Positions 11,690-31,381 of a stretch of DNA of 51,917 nucleotides are shown piece after piece. The DNA comes from a bacterium (GTDB taxonomy: Bacteria; RBG-13-66-14): assembly GCA_035528375.1 (NCBI GenBank), contig DATKYS010000140.1:1-51917 (forward strand), written 5' to 3'. Position numbers and translations under genes: made by a program. The notes beneath the pieces were generated by a model that saw only the letters and a program-made list of their open reading frames with translations, was not told the DNA's origin and did not search any database. Numbering within the stretch: the first letter of the stretch is position 1; the number at the start of each line of letters is the position of its first letter.

Positions 11690-11967
11690 CCGTCACCCCG
11701 CCGCCGGTCGTCTGAGCCATGACGCCCGTTAGATGCCAATTCCGCGCCGACGCCCCTGCTGAATGTTGGGCGGGAGTTTCAGTCCCCGCCGTTTTCAGGC
11801 CCCGACCCTCACCCTGACCCGTAGGCGCGCCTCTCCCTGGGAAGGAGAGTGGAAGCGGGCCGACCTAAACGGCGCGCCGTCGGTCGGCCCCTACGTAGGT
11901 CATTGGCCGTAGGGCGGGGATAGGTATCTGCGGCCGAAGGCAAATCCCCGCCCTACGGTGTGATGGT
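11690..11967. repeat. Intergenic region with dispersed palindromic modules
   Basis: No gene seen. 11765-11960 is a chain of dispersed modules: GGGCGGGAGTTTCAGTCCCCGCC, CCCTCACCCT followed by a CTCTCCC/GGGAGAG-like palindrome, CGGGCCGACC with its partner GGTCGGCCCCTACG, and GTAGGGCGGGGA with its partner TCCCCGCCCTACGG (11951-11958). The 83-bp tandem repeat begins directly after. Confidence 0.65.
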
Positions 11968-12158
11968 GGGGGCCCACTATACTGGCCCCCTTTGGTTGCG
12001 GGGGCCGGGAGCGGAAAGAACGCCGGATTCGACGTTGCGCTTGTTAAGGCGGGGGCCCACTATACTGGCCCCCTTTGGTTGCGGCCTGGAAACGAAAACA
12101 ACGCCGCGTACGGCGTTGTCTCTTTACTATGGCGGGGGCCCACTATACTGGCCCCCTT
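11968..12158 (-). repeat. 83-bp tandem repeats carrying the tRNA-fMet 3' end
   Basis: Three identical cores start at 11968, 12051 and 12134, exactly 83 bases apart. In the tRNA sense each has a hairpin with GGGGGCC and GGCCCCC arms, preceded by the last bases of a tRNA (CCGCAACCA, ending at 11993, 12076 and 12159). Only the third belongs to a full tRNA. The two intervals between cores are diverged copies of each other; the one at 12086-12133 holds a perfect nine-pair hairpin (ACAACGCCG and CGGCGTTGT) with a T-rich 3' side. The array may be remnants of repeated insertion or duplication at the tRNA 3' end; the hairpins also look like terminators. Confidence 0.85.
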
Positions 12159-12235
<77 letters not shown>

Positions 12236-23619: not shown

Positions 23620-23639
23620 AAGGAACCGCACCGACCCCC

Positions 23640-24305
23640 ATGGCGTATCAAGGGATGAACGAGGACCCCGGCCGGGGTGTGTCGAGGCGGGGGGAAGAAT
23701 CCGCCGCGGAGGGGGACGACGTGGAGCATGCGCTGACGGTGAGCTCCAGCGAACGGGAGGCCTACGAGGCCTTCGTGGAGGAGCACGCCCAGGAGGTCTA
23801 CAACATCGCCATGGTCCTCACCGGGGATCGCTACCGGGCCGACGAACTGGCCCAGGAGGCGTTCCTGAAGCTCTACCGCTCCCTCCGGCACTTCGACCCC
23901 GACCGCTCGCTCCGGAACTGGCTCTACACGGTGCTCAAGAACCTCTACATAGATTCCTGGCGCCGCGAGAACCGGATGAAAACCAGCAGCATTGACGAGC
24001 CCGTATCCCTGGGCGGCGGCTCCTCGGTACCCTTCCAGCTCGAGAGCCCCGACCCGGACCCGGAGCGGACCGTCGGGTCCAACGAGGTGGCGGTGATAGT
24101 GCGGGACGCCGTCAGCCGGCTGCCCAAGAAATACTCCATGGCCGTCGCCCTGTGCGACCTGGAGGGGCTCACCTACGAGGAAATTTCCGAGGTGATGGAG
24201 TGCTCGATCGGGACGGTCCGCTCGCGCATCCATCGCGGACGCAAGCTCCTCCGCGAGCGCCTGGCCCACGTGGCGCCCCAGCTCCTGGGCTACACGCCTG
24301 CCTGA
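23640..24305 (+). CDS. ECF-type RNA polymerase sigma factor
   Basis: 221 residues from ATG at 23640; ATG at 23655 is the alternative. Region 2 (about 45-105) has DELAQEAFLKLYRSLRHFD and NWLYTVLKNLYIDSWRR for core binding and -10 recognition. Region 4 (about 150-205) has LEGLTYEEISEVMECSIGTV-RSRIHRGR, the helix-turn-helix for the -35 element. The N-terminal 40 residues are an unstructured, charged extension. With the zinc-finger anti-sigma gene (24908) and the RseB-like gene (25788) it forms a sigmaE-rseA-rseB-like set, which suggests a response to envelope stress. A repeat array separates it from its anti-sigma gene. Confidence 0.92.
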   Translation: MAYQGMNEDPGRGVSRRGEESAAEGDDVEHALTVSSSEREAYEAFVEEHAQEVYNIAMVLTGDRYRADELAQEAFLKLYRSLRHFDPDRSLRNWLYTVLKNLYIDSWRRENRMKTSSIDEPVSLGGGSSVPFQLESPDPDPERTVGSNEVAVIVRDAVSRLPKKYSMAVALCDLEGLTYEEISEVMECSIGTVRSRIHRGRKLLRERLAHVAPQLLGYTPA

Positions 24306-24503
24306 AGGGGCGGGTCGGCCGGCGGGTGGGGTGAAGCCGTCGTTAGTCGGTGTCGAGCTCTAAGAATACGACGGATCGGTCGGCGGGAGATGACGGGCCG
24401 GCGAGGGAATTGAAGAGAACGGCCGCTTTACGGGGAATGGGAAATCGTTGCCGGCGGGAGCTTCCGAGGATGGGGGGGAACGTAAAAGAACTCCGAGCGT
24501 ATC
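24306..24503. other. Spacer between sigma factor gene and repeat array
   Basis: No gene and no clear terminator after the sigma factor stop. The end of the stretch (from about 24470) resembles a diverged half unit of the array that follows. Confidence 0.5.
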
Positions 24504-24911
24504 CTTCACCGACGACACCGAACACCGAGTGACCGAGAGCCGGGAATCTGAGTAAAGTACTAGCATGAGCGGGTATTCGCCTTCACCGACAACACCGAGC
24601 GACCGAGAGCCGAGAATCTGAGTAAAGTACTAGCATGAGCGGGTATTCGCCTTCACCGACAACACCGAGCGACCGAGAGCCGAGAATCCGTAAAAAAACT
24701 TCGAGCATGTGCAGGCAGTCGTCGTCACTGACAAGACTGGACATCGAGCGGCCGAGAGCCGGGAATCCGAGTTAAGTACGAGCGCGAGCGGGTATTCACC
24801 TTCACCGACGACACCGAACATCGAGCGACCGAGAGCCGGGAATCTGAGTAAAGTACAAGCATGAGCAGGTATTCGCCTTCACCGACAACACCGAACATCG
24901 AGCGACTATGA
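24504..24911 (+). repeat. Six-unit tandem repeat array between sigma and anti-sigma genes
   Basis: The phrase CTTCACCGAC begins units at 24504, 24581, 24651, about 24725, 24800 and 24877, giving periods of 70-77 bases. Each unit runs CTTCACCGACAACACCGAGC, GACCGAGAGCCGAGAATCTG, AGTAAAGTACTAGCATGAGC, GGGTATTCGC. Units 2 and 3 are nearly identical; units 1, 4, 5 and 6 are diverged. On the plus strand small frames open with ATG: 24565-24621 (MSGYSPSPTTPSDREPRI), 24635-24775 (same start, 46 residues), and 24861-24911, whose stop overlaps the anti-sigma start. There is no spacer diversity, so this is not CRISPR. Possible roles are a regulatory leader, a binding-site array or a mobile repeat. Confidence 0.9.
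24861..24911 (+). CDS. Possible 16-residue leader peptide coupled to anti-sigma translation
   Basis: The last repeat unit opens with ATG at 24861, encoding MSRYSPSPTTPNIERL, and its TGA stop overlaps the ATG of the anti-sigma gene (ATGA at 24908-24911). The anti-sigma start has no clear ribosome site, so translation might depend on this small frame. The small frame itself also lacks a clear ribosome site, so this remains a hypothesis. Confidence 0.3.
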   Translation: MSRYSPSPTTPNIERL

Positions 24912-25663
24912 GATGCTGGCGTGCCAAAGGTCTGTTTTCGGCCTACATGGACGACGAGCTGCGGGGGCGTGAGCTCGACGCATTCTCCGCGCACCTGGAC
25001 GGGTGCCCGACCTGCCGGCGCGAGCTCGCCGAGCTGCGGGCGCTCAAGGAGGCCGTCGGCTCGGTCGGCTACCGGCTCCCCGCCGATTTCCACCAGGCCG
25101 TCCTGTCCCACTCGCGTCTCGCGGACCTGGTGACGGAGCGTTTCCGGTCGCGGAGCGAGGCCCGGTCGGCCCGGCCCAACCTGCGGCTGGTCCTGGTGGC
25201 CGCCTCCGTGGTCATCATCGCGGTCGGTGTGGGGCTCCTCGGCCTGGACAACATGGCGGGGACCGCGTCTCCGATGGCCCTCGATCTGCCGCAGATCAGC
25301 GACCGCGTGACCGATTCGTCGCCGTCGCCCGCCACCGAGCTCCGGCGCGAGGGGGACGGGGTGGCCGATGCTGTGGCGGAGGCGGTGCATAATGATAGTG
25401 GTCCCGAGGAATATCTCAGCGAGCATCTGGCCGCGGCCGAGGTGTCCCAGAGCTCCACCGAGGAACTCTCCCGCCACGTCCTCGCCGATGAGGCGCTCAG
25501 CCGCGCCGCCGATGTTCCCGTAGAAATTTCGACCGGCGCCCGCTTCTCCCTCGTCAGCGCCGGCTCCCCCATCCCGGACGCCGACGCCGGTCTGCCGAGC
25601 CTGCCCGCGGGGGACGCCGCGGATGTGGACACCGAGCCCGCCGCCGAGGCAACGGGAGAATAG
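24908..25663 (+). CDS. Zinc-finger transmembrane anti-sigma factor
   Basis: 251 residues. The N-terminal domain has the zinc-binding anti-sigma pattern: C3, then H29-x3-C33-x2-C36 (AHLDGCPTC), after the helix GLFSAYMDDEL. One membrane helix (about 92-113, LVLVAASVVIIAVGVGLLGL) divides a cytoplasmic sigma-binding half from an exported tail of about 135 residues rich in acidic residues, serine, alanine and proline. The exported tail would be the input for regulated cleavage, with RseB as protector. The cognate sigma gene is at 23640. The start overlaps a possible leader peptide. Confidence 0.88.
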   Translation: MRCWRAKGLFSAYMDDELRGRELDAFSAHLDGCPTCRRELAELRALKEAVGSVGYRLPADFHQAVLSHSRLADLVTERFRSRSEARSARPNLRLVLVAASVVIIAVGVGLLGLDNMAGTASPMALDLPQISDRVTDSSPSPATELRREGDGVADAVAEAVHNDSGPEEYLSEHLAAAEVSQSSTEELSRHVLADEALSRAADVPVEISTGARFSLVSAGSPIPDADAGLPSLPAGDAADVDTEPAAEATGE

Positions 25664-25684: not shown

Positions 25685-25711
25685 ACGCCGGGTTGCGCCC
25701 CGGCGTTTTTT
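25685..25711 (+). terminator. Rho-independent terminator
   Basis: ACGCCGGG and CCCGGCGT arms followed by TTTTT, 21 bases after the anti-sigma stop. It would limit read-through from the anti-sigma gene into the RseB-like gene. Confidence 0.8.
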
Positions 25712-25787
25712 AAACGGCCTGCATTCGGCGCTTTTTTCGTAAAATCCAGAACTAACCCCCCACTCCCTGCGTAATAGTTAGCGAATC

Positions 25788-26783
25788 ATGTCGCGCAAGC
25801 TCACGATCCTGGTTCTTCTTTTCTGCGTCGCGGCCCTGGCCGAAACGGCGCTGGACGTGCTCACCCAGGCGCTCGTGGCCGAGCCGACCGTGGAGAATTA
25901 CGTCGGCGAGAAGACGATAATCCTCTACAACGGTGCCCAGGCCGAGGCGATGGAGGTGCGCGTGAGCTTCGAGGCCGGCGGCGCGACGCGCACCGATTAC
26001 CTCTCCCCGCCCGCCATGCGTGAGCGGGTCGTGATAGACGACGGCGCGGACCTCTACTCCTATGACCCGCACCTCGAGGTCACCGTCCACTCCGACTCCC
26101 CGCAGATGCTGGACGACCGCCTGAGCGACACCGAGCGCAGGGACCTCATCGCCGGCAACTACATCCTCGAGCTCGAGCCGAACCACACGGTGGCGGGGCG
26201 CGACGCCTACAGGGTCGAGATAACCTCGCGTCACAACGCCACACCCCACCGAATCCTCTGGATAGACTCCAAGAACTACCTCGTGCTGCAGAGCCGGGAG
26301 GAGTGCAACGATTCGGCCGCCAACACCGGTTTCTCCTGGATCGAGTTCAACGTGGAGTTCTCCCCCGATTACTTCTCTATGGGCCAGTTCACGGGCACGG
26401 TGGTCGAGGAGGCCGCGCCGGTCAGCAAATCCGCCCGGAACACGCTCCCGGAAGAGCTGGGGTTAGTGCCCGTCGTTCCCGAAAAGCTCCCCGGCGGTTT
26501 CGTCCTGGTCGAGACCAGATTGGGTTACCGGGCCAACGGTCAGTACGCCGCGCACCTCTCCTACACCGACGGCCTCGAGGGGCTCTCCGTCTTCGAGGAG
26601 GCGCAGGAGGGAAGTCTCAAGGGGCAGGAGATAGCCCTGGGCGAAACGATGGCACGCCTCTCCAAGAGCGCCAACTACTCGGTGCTCCAGTGGCGGGCCG
26701 GAGACATCACCTTCACCCTGGTCGGCCAGCTCACCAACTACGGCCTCTACCAGGTCGCCGCCTACTTCGTGACCGGGAAGTGA
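25788..26783 (+). CDS. RseB/MucB-like periplasmic regulator
   Basis: 331 residues with a signal peptide (to about ALAETA). The N-terminal two thirds have the lipoprotein-carrier-type beta fold seen in LolA and RseB (NYVGEKTIILYNGAQAEAMEV, YRVEITSRHNATPHRILWID). The C-terminal third (about 230-331) resembles the RseB C-terminal domain: LPGGFVLVETRLG, HLSYTDGLEGLSVFEEAQ. In the known system RseB binds the exported tail of anti-sigma RseA and blocks its cleavage until displaced. Its position after a sigma and anti-sigma gene supports the same role here. Similarity is judged by eye, so the assignment is moderate. Confidence 0.72.
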   Translation: MSRKLTILVLLFCVAALAETALDVLTQALVAEPTVENYVGEKTIILYNGAQAEAMEVRVSFEAGGATRTDYLSPPAMRERVVIDDGADLYSYDPHLEVTVHSDSPQMLDDRLSDTERRDLIAGNYILELEPNHTVAGRDAYRVEITSRHNATPHRILWIDSKNYLVLQSREECNDSAANTGFSWIEFNVEFSPDYFSMGQFTGTVVEEAAPVSKSARNTLPEELGLVPVVPEKLPGGFVLVETRLGYRANGQYAAHLSYTDGLEGLSVFEEAQEGSLKGQEIALGETMARLSKSANYSVLQWRAGDITFTLVGQLTNYGLYQVAAYFVTGK

Positions 26784-27054: not shown

Positions 27055-27879
27055 CTACCCTTCGTCGCCGGTCCCCCGGGCGCCGGCCTCCCACCGGCCG
27101 CCCCCCTTGACTATCCCCCGATCCGCGCCCTCCAAAAATGCCGTCAGCCGCGCGATGTCCTCGTTGGGCTCCAGCTCGGCCTTGATCCTCTCCAGGGCCC
27201 CCTTGGGCGCCAGCCCCGAGCGGTAGAGGATGCGGTAGGCCCGCTTGATGAGGCCGACGCGCTCGTCGGAGAAGCCGTGGCGCCGGAGACCGACTTCGTT
27301 GATCGAGCCGACGTGGGTCGCGGGGTAGTTGTAGACGAGCATGAAGGGGGGGACGCCCTGGGTGACCATACAGCCGCCGCCCGTGTAGGAGTAGGCGCCG
27401 ATCCGGTTGAACTGCTGCACTCCCGTCAGGCCGCCGATTATCGCGTGGTCCTCCACCGTAACGTGGCCGGCCAGGGTCGCCAGATTGGCCAGAATCACCC
27501 CCGAGCCCACCACGCAGTCGTGGGCCACGTGGGAGTAGGCCATCAACAGGCACCCCGAGCCGACCACCGTCCGCATGTTCGCCTGCGTCCCCCGGTGGAT
27601 GGTCACGCCCTCCCGGATGGTGTTGGAATTCCCGATGACGGTTTCGCTCGGCTCGCCGGCGAATTTCAGGTCCTGGGGGACGACCCCGATGACGGCGAAG
27701 GGGAAAACGGTGTTGCGCTCGCCGATTACCGTCGGCCCCTCGATGACGACGTGGCTCTTGAGCACCGTGCCGGCGCCGAGGGTCACGCCGGCGCCCACGC
27801 ACGAGAAGGGGCCCACGACCACGTCTTCGGCCAGCCGCGCCTCGGGGTGAACGATGGAGCTGGCATGGACCTCGGGCAT
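27055..27879 (-). CDS. lpxA: UDP-N-acetylglucosamine acyltransferase
   Basis: 274 residues. LpxA transfers a 3-hydroxyacyl chain from ACP to UDP-GlcNAc, the first step of lipid A synthesis. The protein begins with left-handed beta-helix hexapeptide repeats (VHASSIVHPEARLAEDVVVG), has the catalytic histidine in MAYSHVAHDCVVGS, and ends with a helical domain (RHGFSDERVGLIKRAYRILY). The ATG directly follows the fabZ stop (TAG-ATG). It is the last gene of the bamA-to-lpxA cluster; no lpxB follows in this window. Confidence 0.96.
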   Translation of the reverse strand: MPEVHASSIVHPEARLAEDVVVGPFSCVGAGVTLGAGTVLKSHVVIEGPTVIGERNTVFPFAVIGVVPQDLKFAGEPSETVIGNSNTIREGVTIHRGTQANMRTVVGSGCLLMAYSHVAHDCVVGSGVILANLATLAGHVTVEDHAIIGGLTGVQQFNRIGAYSYTGGGCMVTQGVPPFMLVYNYPATHVGSINEVGLRRHGFSDERVGLIKRAYRILYRSGLAPKGALERIKAELEPNEDIARLTAFLEGADRGIVKGGGRWEAGARGTGDEG

Positions 27880-28377
27880 CTACTTCCCGGTTTTCGGAAT
27901 CTTTTTCCCGTTGACCAACACCTCGACCCCGCCCTCGGGCACCTCGAAATAGCTGCTCATGACCCCGGAGACGGTCGTCTTTCCGTCCACGGAGGCCCGG
28001 GCCTTCATCTTGCACAGGCCGCGGTGGATGGTGACGATTTCGGTGTAGAGGTCGAGGCGGTCGCCGGGAACCACGGTGTGCCGGAGCTTCATGTCGTCGA
28101 AGCCCCGCAACAGGATTACCTGGCCCTCGGTTAGCTCGTAGGAGTAGTGGAGGAGGATACCACCCGCCTGGGCCAGCGCCTCGACCTGCAACACGCCCGG
28201 CATTATCGGCTCGCCGGGGAAGTGGCCGGTGAAGTACGGCTCGTTGTGGGTGACGTTCTTGTAGGCCTTGATGTAGTGGAGCGGCTCGACCTCCACTATC
28301 CGGTCCACCATCTGGAACGGGTAGCGGTGGGGCAGCTTGGCGAGGATGCCCTTGATGTCCATGATTCCGGGCGGCAT
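27880..28377 (-). CDS. fabZ: 3-hydroxyacyl-ACP dehydratase
   Basis: 165 residues. FabZ dehydrates 3-hydroxyacyl-ACP in fatty acid elongation and competes with lipid A synthesis for the same substrate. The hot-dog-fold motif with the catalytic histidine is [19 protein letters not shown], followed by the active-site glutamate in [10 protein letters not shown]. The ATG at 28377 has GGGGAGG ahead. It abuts lpxA. Normally it would directly follow lpxC; here a restriction-system remnant separates them. Confidence 0.96.
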
Positions 28378-28380
28378 GGG

Positions 28381-28461
28381 TTACGACCTCCCCGATTTAG
28401 GGTTCCGGCGACGGGAGGCAAGGGGTTTACGGCTGCGCCGTCGCAGGTATGCCGGGGGCAT
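28381..28461 (-). CDS. Possible 26-residue basic leader ORF ahead of fabZ
   Basis: ATG at 28461 (inside the 30-bp repeat) opens a frame for MPPAYLRRRSRKPLASRRR and seven further residues, ending in TAA three bases before the fabZ ATG. The end of the frame contains the GGGGAGG ribosome site of fabZ. Translation is unproven; the frame could equally be chance in GC-rich repeat DNA. Confidence 0.25.
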   Translation of the reverse strand: MPPAYLRRRSRKPLASRRRNPKSGRS

Positions 28462-28479
28462 AGCTCGCTTCGCTCGGTT
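28450..28479. repeat. 30-bp dispersed repeat, copy 1 (copy 2 at 33586-33615)
   Basis: TGCCGGGGGCATAGCTCGCT followed by TCGCTCGGTT occurs identically here and at 33586-33615. Here it lies upstream of fabZ, flanked by an inverted pair AAGGGGTTTA (28417-28426) and TAAACCCCTT (28479-28488) and by two similar TTACGGC(T/G)... phrases. The rest of the 28378-28618 gap has no gene. Confidence 0.8.
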
Positions 28480-28618
28480 AAACCCCTTGTTTCCAATAAG
28501 GAGGGTGATTACGGCTTCGCCGACGCAAAGATACGGGTGATTTTACCACAAAGGGCACGCCCGGGGCGGCCCCGGTTTCGTTCCATACGGCGGCGTCCCC
28601 TCACGATCTCTTGCGTCT

Positions 28619-29209
28619 TCATGTCGATGTCTCGAGAGCCGTTAGGGCGGCTCGGTGCCAGCGGGCGATGTACTTGTCGGAGAGGTGCTCGGGGTGAGCC
28701 GCGAGGTAGTCGAGGCACCAGCACACAAGGCCATCCCAGGCGTCGTCGGGATCGACGGAGCGCAGCGACCAGCCGAGCTCGCCGAGCGTCCAATTCGACT
28801 TCGCAGCGTTTCGGAGCATCGACGTGGTCACCCAGTTCGGCTCGTCGTCGGAACCGCCGCGCGCGACCGGCACCACGTGATCGATGGTCGGGAAGAGCTC
28901 CCAATATACGATGTGGCAATCGCTCATCTTCCAGTTGGGATGAGCAGGAAACTCCTCGGGCATGACCTTCGAGAGCAGGCGCAGGGTCGCAGGAAAAACG
29001 AGGCGCGCGCCGGAGTAGCGGTCGGTGAAGCGGTCACGCAAGAACACGCGCATCGACTGAAGCTCCGTGTACTTGCGGCCCGTGTTCGCGTGGCGAATGA
29101 AGGGATACTCGGCAACGGCAATCGCTCGCGCGGCGTCGCAATCCTCGCGGAGCAGGGCGCCGCAGACCCGCGCGACGACGTCGGCCGGCCCTTGAACGTC
29201 AGCCCGCAT
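28619..29209 (-). CDS. HNH endonuclease, restriction-associated
   Basis: 196 residues. The C-terminal half contains an HNH-type motif: TIDHVVPVARGGSDDEPNW then TTSMLRNAAKSN, with the D-H pair, the central asparagine and the last asparagine. No flanking zinc cysteines are seen. The ATG overlaps by 11 bases the end of a type I restriction R-subunit remnant (29199-29445), the order in which such HNH genes often follow hsdR. It is therefore probably cargo of a decayed restriction-modification locus inserted between lpxC and fabZ. It appears intact itself. Confidence 0.82.
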   Translation of the reverse strand: MRADVQGPADVVARVCGALLREDCDAARAIAVAEYPFIRHANTGRKYTELQSMRVFLRDRFTDRYSGARLVFPATLRLLSKVMPEEFPAHPNWKMSDCHIVYWELFPTIDHVVPVARGGSDDEPNWVTTSMLRNAAKSNWTLGELGWSLRSVDPDDAWDGLVCWCLDYLAAHPEHLSDKYIARWHRAALTALETST

Positions 29210-29445
29210 CCTTCCAAACCTCCTCGGCGAGCTTGCCGAGCACGCTCGCGAGCTTCCCGTCGAAGACCTTGTTGAGGCGCACGAAGCCCCCCTGGGACTT
29301 GAACTGCCCCCGGTCGAGGGACTCGCGGTCGACGATGGTTTCGATCTTCACTTGTTCTGCGATGCGGTCGAGTCACTTCGACTGCTGCTCGGTGAACTTG
29401 TGCACCTTACGAAGTCGCTGGATGGCGCGGTCGACGGCTCCGGGG
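29199..29445 (-). pseudogene. C-terminal remnant of a type I restriction enzyme R subunit (HsdR)
   Basis: Directly after the lpxC stop, the minus strand reads DRAIQRLRKVHKFTEQQSK, a TGA stop (29373-29375), LDRIAEQVKIETIVDRESLD, then RGQFKSQGGFVRLNKVFDGK and LASVLGKLAEEVW. This matches the end of HsdR proteins of the EcoEI type (helix-rich C-terminal domain). The in-frame TGA replaces the tryptophan usual after this position (TGG to TGA). All of the motor and nuclease domains are absent. The frame ends overlapping the HNH gene start. Confidence 0.8.
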
Positions 29446-30288
29446 TCACCCGAGCTCCGCCCGGAGCCTGCGCGCCAGCCCCAGGTTGGAGGTGTGCCCG
29501 CCCTTGACGCTGATGACGTGGGCCCGGAGCGGGGCGCCGATCAGGGTGAGGTCGCCGAGGAGGTCGAGGACCTTGTGGCGTACGAACTCGTCGGCGAAGC
29601 GCAGGTTGTCGTTCAAAATTTCCTCGTCGCCGATTACGATGGCGCAGGCCAGCGAACCGCCGCGGATCAGCCCGGCCCGGCGCAGGGCCTGAACCTCGTG
29701 GAGGAAGCAGAAGGTGCGGGCGGGCGCTATCTCCTCGGCGTAGCGCCCGTCCTCGCCGCTGAAGTCCAGGTACTGGCTCCGCAGCACGGGGTGGTCGAAG
29801 TGGAGGGCGAAGGAGACTCGGAGCGGTCCGGGGTGCGGCAGGACGATCATCTGGGCCGTGCCGGTGTCGTGGACGATGGGCCGCTTTGGTTCCAGGTAGC
29901 GCCGCGGGGCGTCCTGCTCCACGCGGCCCGCCTCGCACAGGGCGTTCACGAAGGGCAGTGCGCTGCCGTCGGTTACGGGGGGCTCGCTGGAGTCCACCTC
30001 GATGACCGCGTTGTCCACCCCGCAGCCGGAGAGGGCGGAGAGGATATGCTCCACGGTGTGGACCTCCACCTCGCCCGCCCCCAGGGTCGTGCCCCGGGAG
30101 GTGTCCATCACGTATTCGGCGAGGGCCTGTATCTCGGGCTTCCCGGGCAGGTCCACCCTCCGGAAGAGGTAACCCGTGTCCGCCTCGGCGGGCAGGTACC
30201 TCATCCGGCAGAGGTCGCCGGTGTGGAGGCCGATTCCCGTCAGCTCCACCGCGCGGGCGATGGTCCTCTGCCTTTCCGCTTTATCCAC
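29446..30288 (-). CDS. lpxC: UDP-3-O-acyl-N-acetylglucosamine deacetylase
   Basis: 280 residues. LpxC is the zinc deacetylase that commits the pathway to lipid A. Motifs: [20 protein letters not shown] with the catalytic glutamate and first zinc histidine, [27 protein letters not shown] with the other zinc ligands (H and D), and KGGHTSNL with the C-terminal histidine. GTG at 30288 or 30291 overlaps the end of lpxD. It is slightly shorter at the C-terminus than the common 300 or so residues; its stop is the junction with the restriction remnant, so the last residues could be altered by that insertion. Confidence 0.95.
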
Positions 30289-31345
30289 CACCGCGGCCCT
30301 CCAGCTCCGCGATCCGCTTCTCGAGCTCTTCGATTCTACGCAGGAGCGCCCGGTGTTCCCGGCGCATCTCGGGCAGGTCGGAGACGGCGGCCTCGATCCT
30401 GGCCGCGCGTCGGACCGGTCGGGCCGGGGAGCCGAACCAGCGTTCCCCGGCGGGGATGTTGCGGGAGACGCCGGACTGGGCGGTGACGACCACGCCGTCA
30501 CCGATCACGAGGTGGCCGGCTATTCCCACCTGCCCGGCGAGCTGCACCCGGTCGCCGATGGTGCACGAGCCCGAAATCCCCACCTGGGCTGCCATGGCGC
30601 TGTCCTCCCCCACGCTGACGTTGTGGGCGATCTGGACCAGGTTGTCTATCTTGACCCCGCGGGCGATTCGGGTCGGCCCCAGCGCCCCCCGGTCCACGCA
30701 GGCGTTGCAGCCTATCTCCACGTCGTCGCCGGTGACGACCCAGCCCATCTGGGGTATCTTGTGGAAGCGCCCCTCGGCGTCGGGCGCATACCCGAAGCCG
30801 TCCGAGCCGATCACCGCCCCCGGGTAGACGATGTTGCGCGCCCCGAGCTCGCACCGCTCCCGGATGACCACGTTGGGGTAGATGATGGAGTCGGGGCCCA
30901 CACCGGTGCCCTCGCCGATGTACACCCCGCTCATCACGATGGTCCGGTCGCCGAGCCTGACGGCGGCCCCGAGGGTGACGTGGGGGCCGACGGCGACCCC
31001 CTCGCCCAGCACGGCGGACGGGTCCACCGAGGCCGAGGGGTGCACGCCCGCCGGCGGGTAGGGGATGGACGGGGCGAACCTTCTGGCGATCTGTGTGTAA
31101 CCGAGGTAGGGGTTGGGGCAGCGGATGTACGCCAGATTGCCGACGGGCGGCGTCTTCTCGTCAATTATCACCGCCGCCGCCCGGCACCGGGGCAGGAGCT
31201 TCGCGTATCGCCTGTTGGCTAAAAAAGTGACCTGGTCCGGGCCGGCCGCCTCGAGGGTGCTTATCCCGCTCACGCGCACCGAGGGGTCGCCCCTCTCCAG
31301 CGAGCCACCGGTGATGACGGCTATCTCCCCCAGGCTCAGAGCCAC
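30281..31345 (-). CDS. lpxD: UDP-3-O-acylglucosamine N-acyltransferase
   Basis: 354 residues. LpxD adds the second acyl chain in lipid A synthesis. A UDP-binding N-terminal domain (to about 100) precedes left-handed beta-helix hexapeptide repeats with the catalytic histidine in [20 protein letters not shown]-terminal coiled-coil helix ([19 protein letters not shown]) supports trimerisation. GTG at 31345 is preferred because GGGGGGAG precedes it by a few bases and [13 protein letters not shown] is the usual N-terminus. A GTG at 31381, right after the skp stop, would add 12 residues. It overlaps lpxC. Confidence 0.95.
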
Positions 31346-31381
31346 GTCTCCCCCCCTCGAAGGGGTGCCGGGGACTTCCAC

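Follow-up and report, generated by a model that had tools for sequence, protein, structure and literature searches.

In a draft genome of the Coatesbacteria (G000; 2.63 Mb in 144 contigs; a relative of Candidatus Coatesbacteria RBG_13_66_14), the genes of an ECF sigma factor and its anti-sigma factor are separated by a tandem repeat array, at the head of which lies an ECF-type promoter motif (P2). From our point of view, P2 is probably a second, sigma-dependent promoter of the anti-sigma gene, whose promoter-leader segment has been duplicated in tandem and is decaying near neutrally, a reading to which we assign a probability of about 0.62. Under stress, the released sigma factor would act at three sites: at P1, upstream of its own gene, from where transcription would read through into the anti-sigma gene; at P2, for a second round of anti-sigma transcription; and at P3, before an RseB-like gene. 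As such, active sigma would lead to an extra brake, by which the response would be shut off. Within the genus of G000, the stretch that begins with P2 and reaches to the anti-sigma start would have been duplicated in tandem; in G000, only the first copy would have kept a recognisable promoter, and the five later copies would now form a poorly structured 5' leader of about 400 nt that drifts approximately neutrally except for its last ~40 nt. That P2 is active, that the present sigma uses it and that it serves in feedback is what we infer from the sequence.

The locus was studied within a window of 51,917 nt, by which we mean the whole stretch of DNA that was analysed; features are on the forward strand unless indicated. 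All three genes were recognised by Pfam matches above cut-off, namely a sigma factor with only the Sigma70_r2 and Sigma70_r4_2 domains (23721-24305), an adjacent anti-sigma factor with an N-terminal zf-HC2 domain and one hydrophobic stretch (24908-25663) and, downstream, a MucB/RseB-like protein (25788-26783; PF03888, E 8e-6). Only three Sigma70_r4_2 loci were found in the genome, the present sigma gene being the strongest. The sigma gene likely starts at GTG 23721 after GAGGGGGACGAC, as judged from a conserved SD-like element that reads GAGGGGG here and AAGGGGG in the family members G004 and G006, where the counterpart of this codon is a TTG; the ATG at 23655 lies just 6 nt past the -10 element of P1. 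The anti-sigma gene is followed by an intrinsic terminator (ACGCCGGG-N6-CCCGGCGT and a T run, 25685-25711), which was found by eye and is absent from the output of the terminator scan; similar hairpins stand 3' of the anti-sigma gene in G001, G002, G004 and G006.

Our comparison comprised five genomes of the family, namely G000, its congeners G001 and G002, and G004 and G006, of which the three congeners are few, related and hence not independent; a search of the incomplete genomes G003 and G005 detected neither gene of the sigma/anti-sigma pair. The sigma protein is 95-97% identical at the amino acid level within the genus and 79% within the family, and the anti-sigma protein is 83-84% identical in G001/G002 and 34-38% in G006/G004. 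The spacer between the two genes measures 602 nt in G000 (sigma stop at 24305 to anti-sigma ATG at 24908) and 340-814 nt across the family, including 814 nt in G004 and 501 nt in G006, in neither of which an array is evident. More distant members of the phylum (G008, G010, G011) have a spacer of only ~20 nt with a visible SD.

The initial annotation had described six units of 70-77 nt that start at 24504. Both Tandem Repeats Finder (TRF), which calls the array twice (24521-24894 with period 70 and score 429; 24661-24906 with period 77), and a cut by homology establish that a tandem array lies between the two genes, and a repeat search found the copies in register. It is, however, composed of five full units of 70-79 nt and a partial head, and it begins ~27 nt earlier, at 24477, with the ECF-type promoter that had been missed. 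Behind 171 nt of repeat-free, diverged sequence without a detected intrinsic terminator (24306-24476) follow the 57-nt head U0 (24477-24533), which carries P2 and a 30-nt core (CTTCACCGACGACACCGAACACCGAGTGAC) and is 82% identical to the U0 of G001, and the units U1 (24534-24603, 70 nt), U2 (24604-24673, 70 nt), U3 (24674-24752, 79 nt), U4 (24753-24829, 77 nt) and U5 (24830-24906, 77 nt), whose last base lies 1 nt 5' of the anti-sigma ATG. The ancestral unit length is 77 nt, the 70-nt units being 77-nt units minus 7 nt.

U1, U2, U4 and U5 share 87-99% identity with one another, 73-79% with U3 and at most 77% with the units of the congeners. Since these four units are closer to each other than to those of the congeners, the expansion was recent and lineage-specific; the ancestral-like U3 looks older than the others. 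As proposed in the initial annotation, we compared unit numbers across related genomes and searched for copies at unrelated loci. G001 and G002 carry the array at the same site with a head and two units (82+77 and 77+77 nt), so that the number of full units varies between species as in a VNTR (5, 2 and 2), with the reservation that the count in G000 comes from a draft assembly in which mis-assembly is possible and in which U1/U2 may have been collapsed if short reads were used. No further copy of the unit was found in the own 2.63-Mb genome (next match E = 0.28), and in a search of this genome and 60 relatives convincing E-values were obtained solely at the same locus in the two congeners. By eye, each unit seemed to retain a trace of the anti-sigma start at its left end (GAGA-GCCGG versus GAGATGCTGG), but this idea was discarded, as the score is reached by 20-38% of shuffles and is not significant.

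The evidence for P2 comes from its motif and its position. P1 (GGAAC-N17-CGTATC, 23622-23649) is an exact match before the sigma gene; the same motif stands at this position in G001, G002 and G006, and GGAAC-N17-CGTACT in G004. It has the form of a textbook ECF promoter, which suggests autoregulation of the sigma gene. P2 (GGAAC-N16-CGTATC, 24477-24503) lies 855 bp away on the same strand, and the two are among just eight GGAAC-N16/17-CGTATC sites in the genome, compared with none for a reversed-pattern control. From this density, a chance match within 602 nt of one strand is expected in about 1 of 1000 cases. The shorter pattern GGAAC-N16/17-CGTA occurs 54 times versus 21 in the control.

We further scored the spacers with a promoter matrix built from 14 sites of the own genome outside the spacer, P2 excluded, which had themselves been selected with the same core pattern. 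The top match in all five spacers is the near-consensus site (18.7 in G000, 15.6 in G001, 13.2 in G002 and 14.3 in both G004 and G006), and runner-up scores do not exceed 8.5, save for an overlapping register in G006 and the unit copies in G001. On both strands of the 52-kb window, scores of at least 18 are reached at three places, of which two are P1 and P2 and the third precedes a signal-peptide gene. An exact GGAAC/CGTA match appears in 1.3% (G000) and 0.2% (G001) of dinucleotide-shuffled spacers; a motif with one mismatch arises in 5-14% of shuffles per spacer and is so not rare, and the sites of G002, G004 and G006 each carry one mismatch in the -35 element. The distance from the -10 end of the spacer site to the start codon varies among the five genomes (404, 190, 185, 129 and 88 nt).

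At the level of motifs, the sequence that the cognate sigma factor would recognise is found between the sigma and anti-sigma genes. A separate anti-sigma promoter with its own start had been named in the initial annotation as an argument against its proposal; such a promoter is indeed predicted at 24477-24503, though a separate start codon is not. Beyond the terminator of the anti-sigma gene lies P3 (AGAAC-N17-CGTAAT, 25748-25775), a promoter-like site before the MucB/RseB-like gene, whose elements recur at the equivalent position in G001 and G002. For some predicted sigma-E-like promoters (25748-25788; 46476-46450), the distance to the start codon is just 11-12 nt, and their transcripts would be nearly leaderless. 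Since the present sigma gene is the strongest Sigma70_r4_2 locus and has the motif before itself, we infer that these sites belong to it.

The array could also be a neutral minisatellite that arose when a spacer under weak constraint underwent slipped duplication, and that has no effect on anti-sigma output, P2 being a chance match. The spacer does evolve fast, its homogenised units in G000 point to a recent lineage-specific expansion, and other tandem arrays occur in the ~176 kb of sampled stretches (L051 2204-2467, L038 1842-2012 and L086 1754-1913). However, chance would not readily place a near-consensus promoter as the best match in five of five family spacers, nor make the G000 match exact up to the TC after CGTA, and we consider this explanation unlikely. 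The three arrays just named have units of 30 nt (x 8.8), 60 nt (x 2.8) and 42 nt (x 3-4), respectively. Within the window, a further array at 11963-12167, beside an apparent tRNA-Met gene on the minus strand, consists of an 83-nt unit (x 2.5), each copy of which contains a terminator-like GGGGGCC..GGCCCCC hairpin.

The initial annotation had proposed that small peptides encoded in the units regulate the anti-sigma gene by translation coupling. The frames exist: MSGYSPSPTTPSDREPRI in U1 (ATG at 24565), a frame in U2 (ATG at 24635) that continues to 46 aa, and MSRYSPSPTTPNIERL in U5 (24861-24911), whose final CTATGA overlaps the anti-sigma ATG, as had been noted. It is conceivable that they, and chiefly the last one, set anti-sigma translation by coupling; none of the three congeners interrupts the frame of the last unit, and in each it terminates with CTATGA over the start codon. 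As had also been recognised, the anti-sigma start has no SD visible by eye, which holds in all three congeners, whereas G004 and G006 show GGGAG/AGGAG before their GTG/TTG starts; this leaves room for a translational role.

The frames themselves, however, do not behave like coding sequence. The start of the last one is ATG in G000, GTG in G001 and absent at that position in G002, the frame of U4 has no ATG, and no SD was seen before any of the small frames. The 12 variable columns among the three last units fall on codon positions 1, 2 and 3 as 6/4/2, which is the opposite of protein constraint. Since unit lengths of 70, 77 or 79 nt are not multiples of three, the frames do not continue in register. 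A lack of frame conservation between units or strains had been foreseen as speaking against the peptide proposal, and at least in part this is what we found, between units and between species alike. We therefore reject the small peptides, including MSRYSPSPTTPNIERL, as conserved products and regard coupling through them as quite unlikely; the repeats resemble drifting leader DNA copies more than a set of small regulatory peptides. We likewise rejected the idea that the anti-sigma protein begins earlier, in frame within the last unit, as that frame is open but a start codon is absent in G000 and the G004/G006 homologues begin at the same residue as the annotated start. In the spacer of G004 (L023, G004:C196), a clear SD (MNQDQEPSGSGGKNESVGEAAKKKSRYRLSRVYLKQLNHLLTHDGDKKNPGKS) accompanies a frame of ~53 aa, of which no counterpart was seen in the other family members.

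If the unit copies served as several binding sites for sigma-RNA polymerase, unit number would tune anti-sigma output. Species do differ in unit number, and successive units of G001 hold three promoter-like boxes with scores of 15.6, 13.2 and 11.0, the second and third units retaining GAAAC-N17-CGTAAC and GGAAC-N16-CGTGTG, a sign, also in favour of our main reading, that promoter copies travelled with the unit. Sites within the units after the head, however, never score above 6.5 in G000 and 6.1 in G002, and tandem promoters appear very unlikely. That the array RNA is an attenuator, a riboswitch-like or a protein-binding element is highly improbable: the units do share a 30-nt core (CTTCACCGAC..ACCGA..GAC), but an Rfam search of the region gave no match, the terminator scan found no intrinsic terminator in spacer or leader, and the leader, which would measure ~398 nt in G000 if P2 is used, shows no stable fold and is less structured than dinucleotide-shuffled sequences (z = +5.3 in G000, +1.4 and +2.2 in G001/G002), which also speaks against the attenuation initially suggested.

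A duplicated leader segment under near-neutral decay, as we propose, is consistent with the conservation of the region. Between species, identity over the last 77 nt amounts to 74-78%, no higher than at fourfold-degenerate sites of the anti-sigma (77-83%) and sigma (81-90%) genes. Immediately before the anti-sigma start, the final 40 nt, which are the best conserved part of U5, reach 85-93%, as would be expected of a translation start region.

Elsewhere in the genome, GGAAC-N16/17-CGTA sites often lie shortly 5' of signal-peptide genes, and also of fabZ-lpxA, a candidate pattern of targets like that of a sigma-E envelope regulon. Near the sigma locus, on the minus strand (27055-31381), lies a cluster of genes that, from reading their translations, we take to be lpxD, lpxC, fabZ and lpxA; a GGAAC-N16-CGTAAC site before fabZ (28406-28380) is a candidate member of the same regulon. 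The locus also provides a candidate sigma-E-like promoter motif and target list for the Coatesbacteria.

Given its location between the two genes, it is plausible that the array bears on the sigma to anti-sigma ratio, as the initial annotation suggested. One could speculate that the tandem duplication gives the negative feedback of an envelope stress response a tunable gain, in which new copies add promoters (G001) and longer, SD-less and unstructured leaders (G000), and unit number sets the ratio and evolves fast, but we hold this to be improbable. If P2 is active, an uncultured and poorly known phylum would share the arrangement of Corynebacterium, in which released sigma drives extra synthesis of its own inhibitor, and the array, with 5, 2 and 2 units in the three species, would offer naturally graded leader lengths within a feedback loop, which could be tested with reporters.

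Transcription of rshA and cseE in C. glutamicum starts at sigma-dependent promoters that lie within the sigH-rshA and sigE-cseE operons, the cseE promoter (GGAACT-N16-CGTT) lying 65 nt before cseE, and these promoters have been proposed to restore the brake and shut the response after stress (PMC3489674, PMC10012870). An ECF-type promoter directly before the anti-sigma gene is what we predict here from sequence as well. Unlike in C. glutamicum, the sigma gene also has a predicted autoregulatory promoter, a third promoter-like site precedes the RseB-like gene, and the promoter-leader segments are tandemly duplicated over ~400 nt. The promoter arrangement is hence already known, and it is the tandem duplication of such a segment, of which we found no published description in the open-access literature, that sets the G000 case apart. 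The gene order of sigma, membrane anti-sigma and RseB-like protein corresponds to that of the proteobacterial RpoE-RseA-RseB system, as do the candidate targets, exported proteins and lipid A genes; the anti-sigma factor, however, is a zf-HC2 (ZAS-type) protein, a terminator and an own promoter-like site precede the rseB-like gene, and the family has the long spacer described above. With intergenic VNTRs (minisatellites), the array shares head-to-tail units, a species-specific unit number and homogenised copies, but differs in that its unit starts as a promoter-leader segment and occupies the same site in three species.
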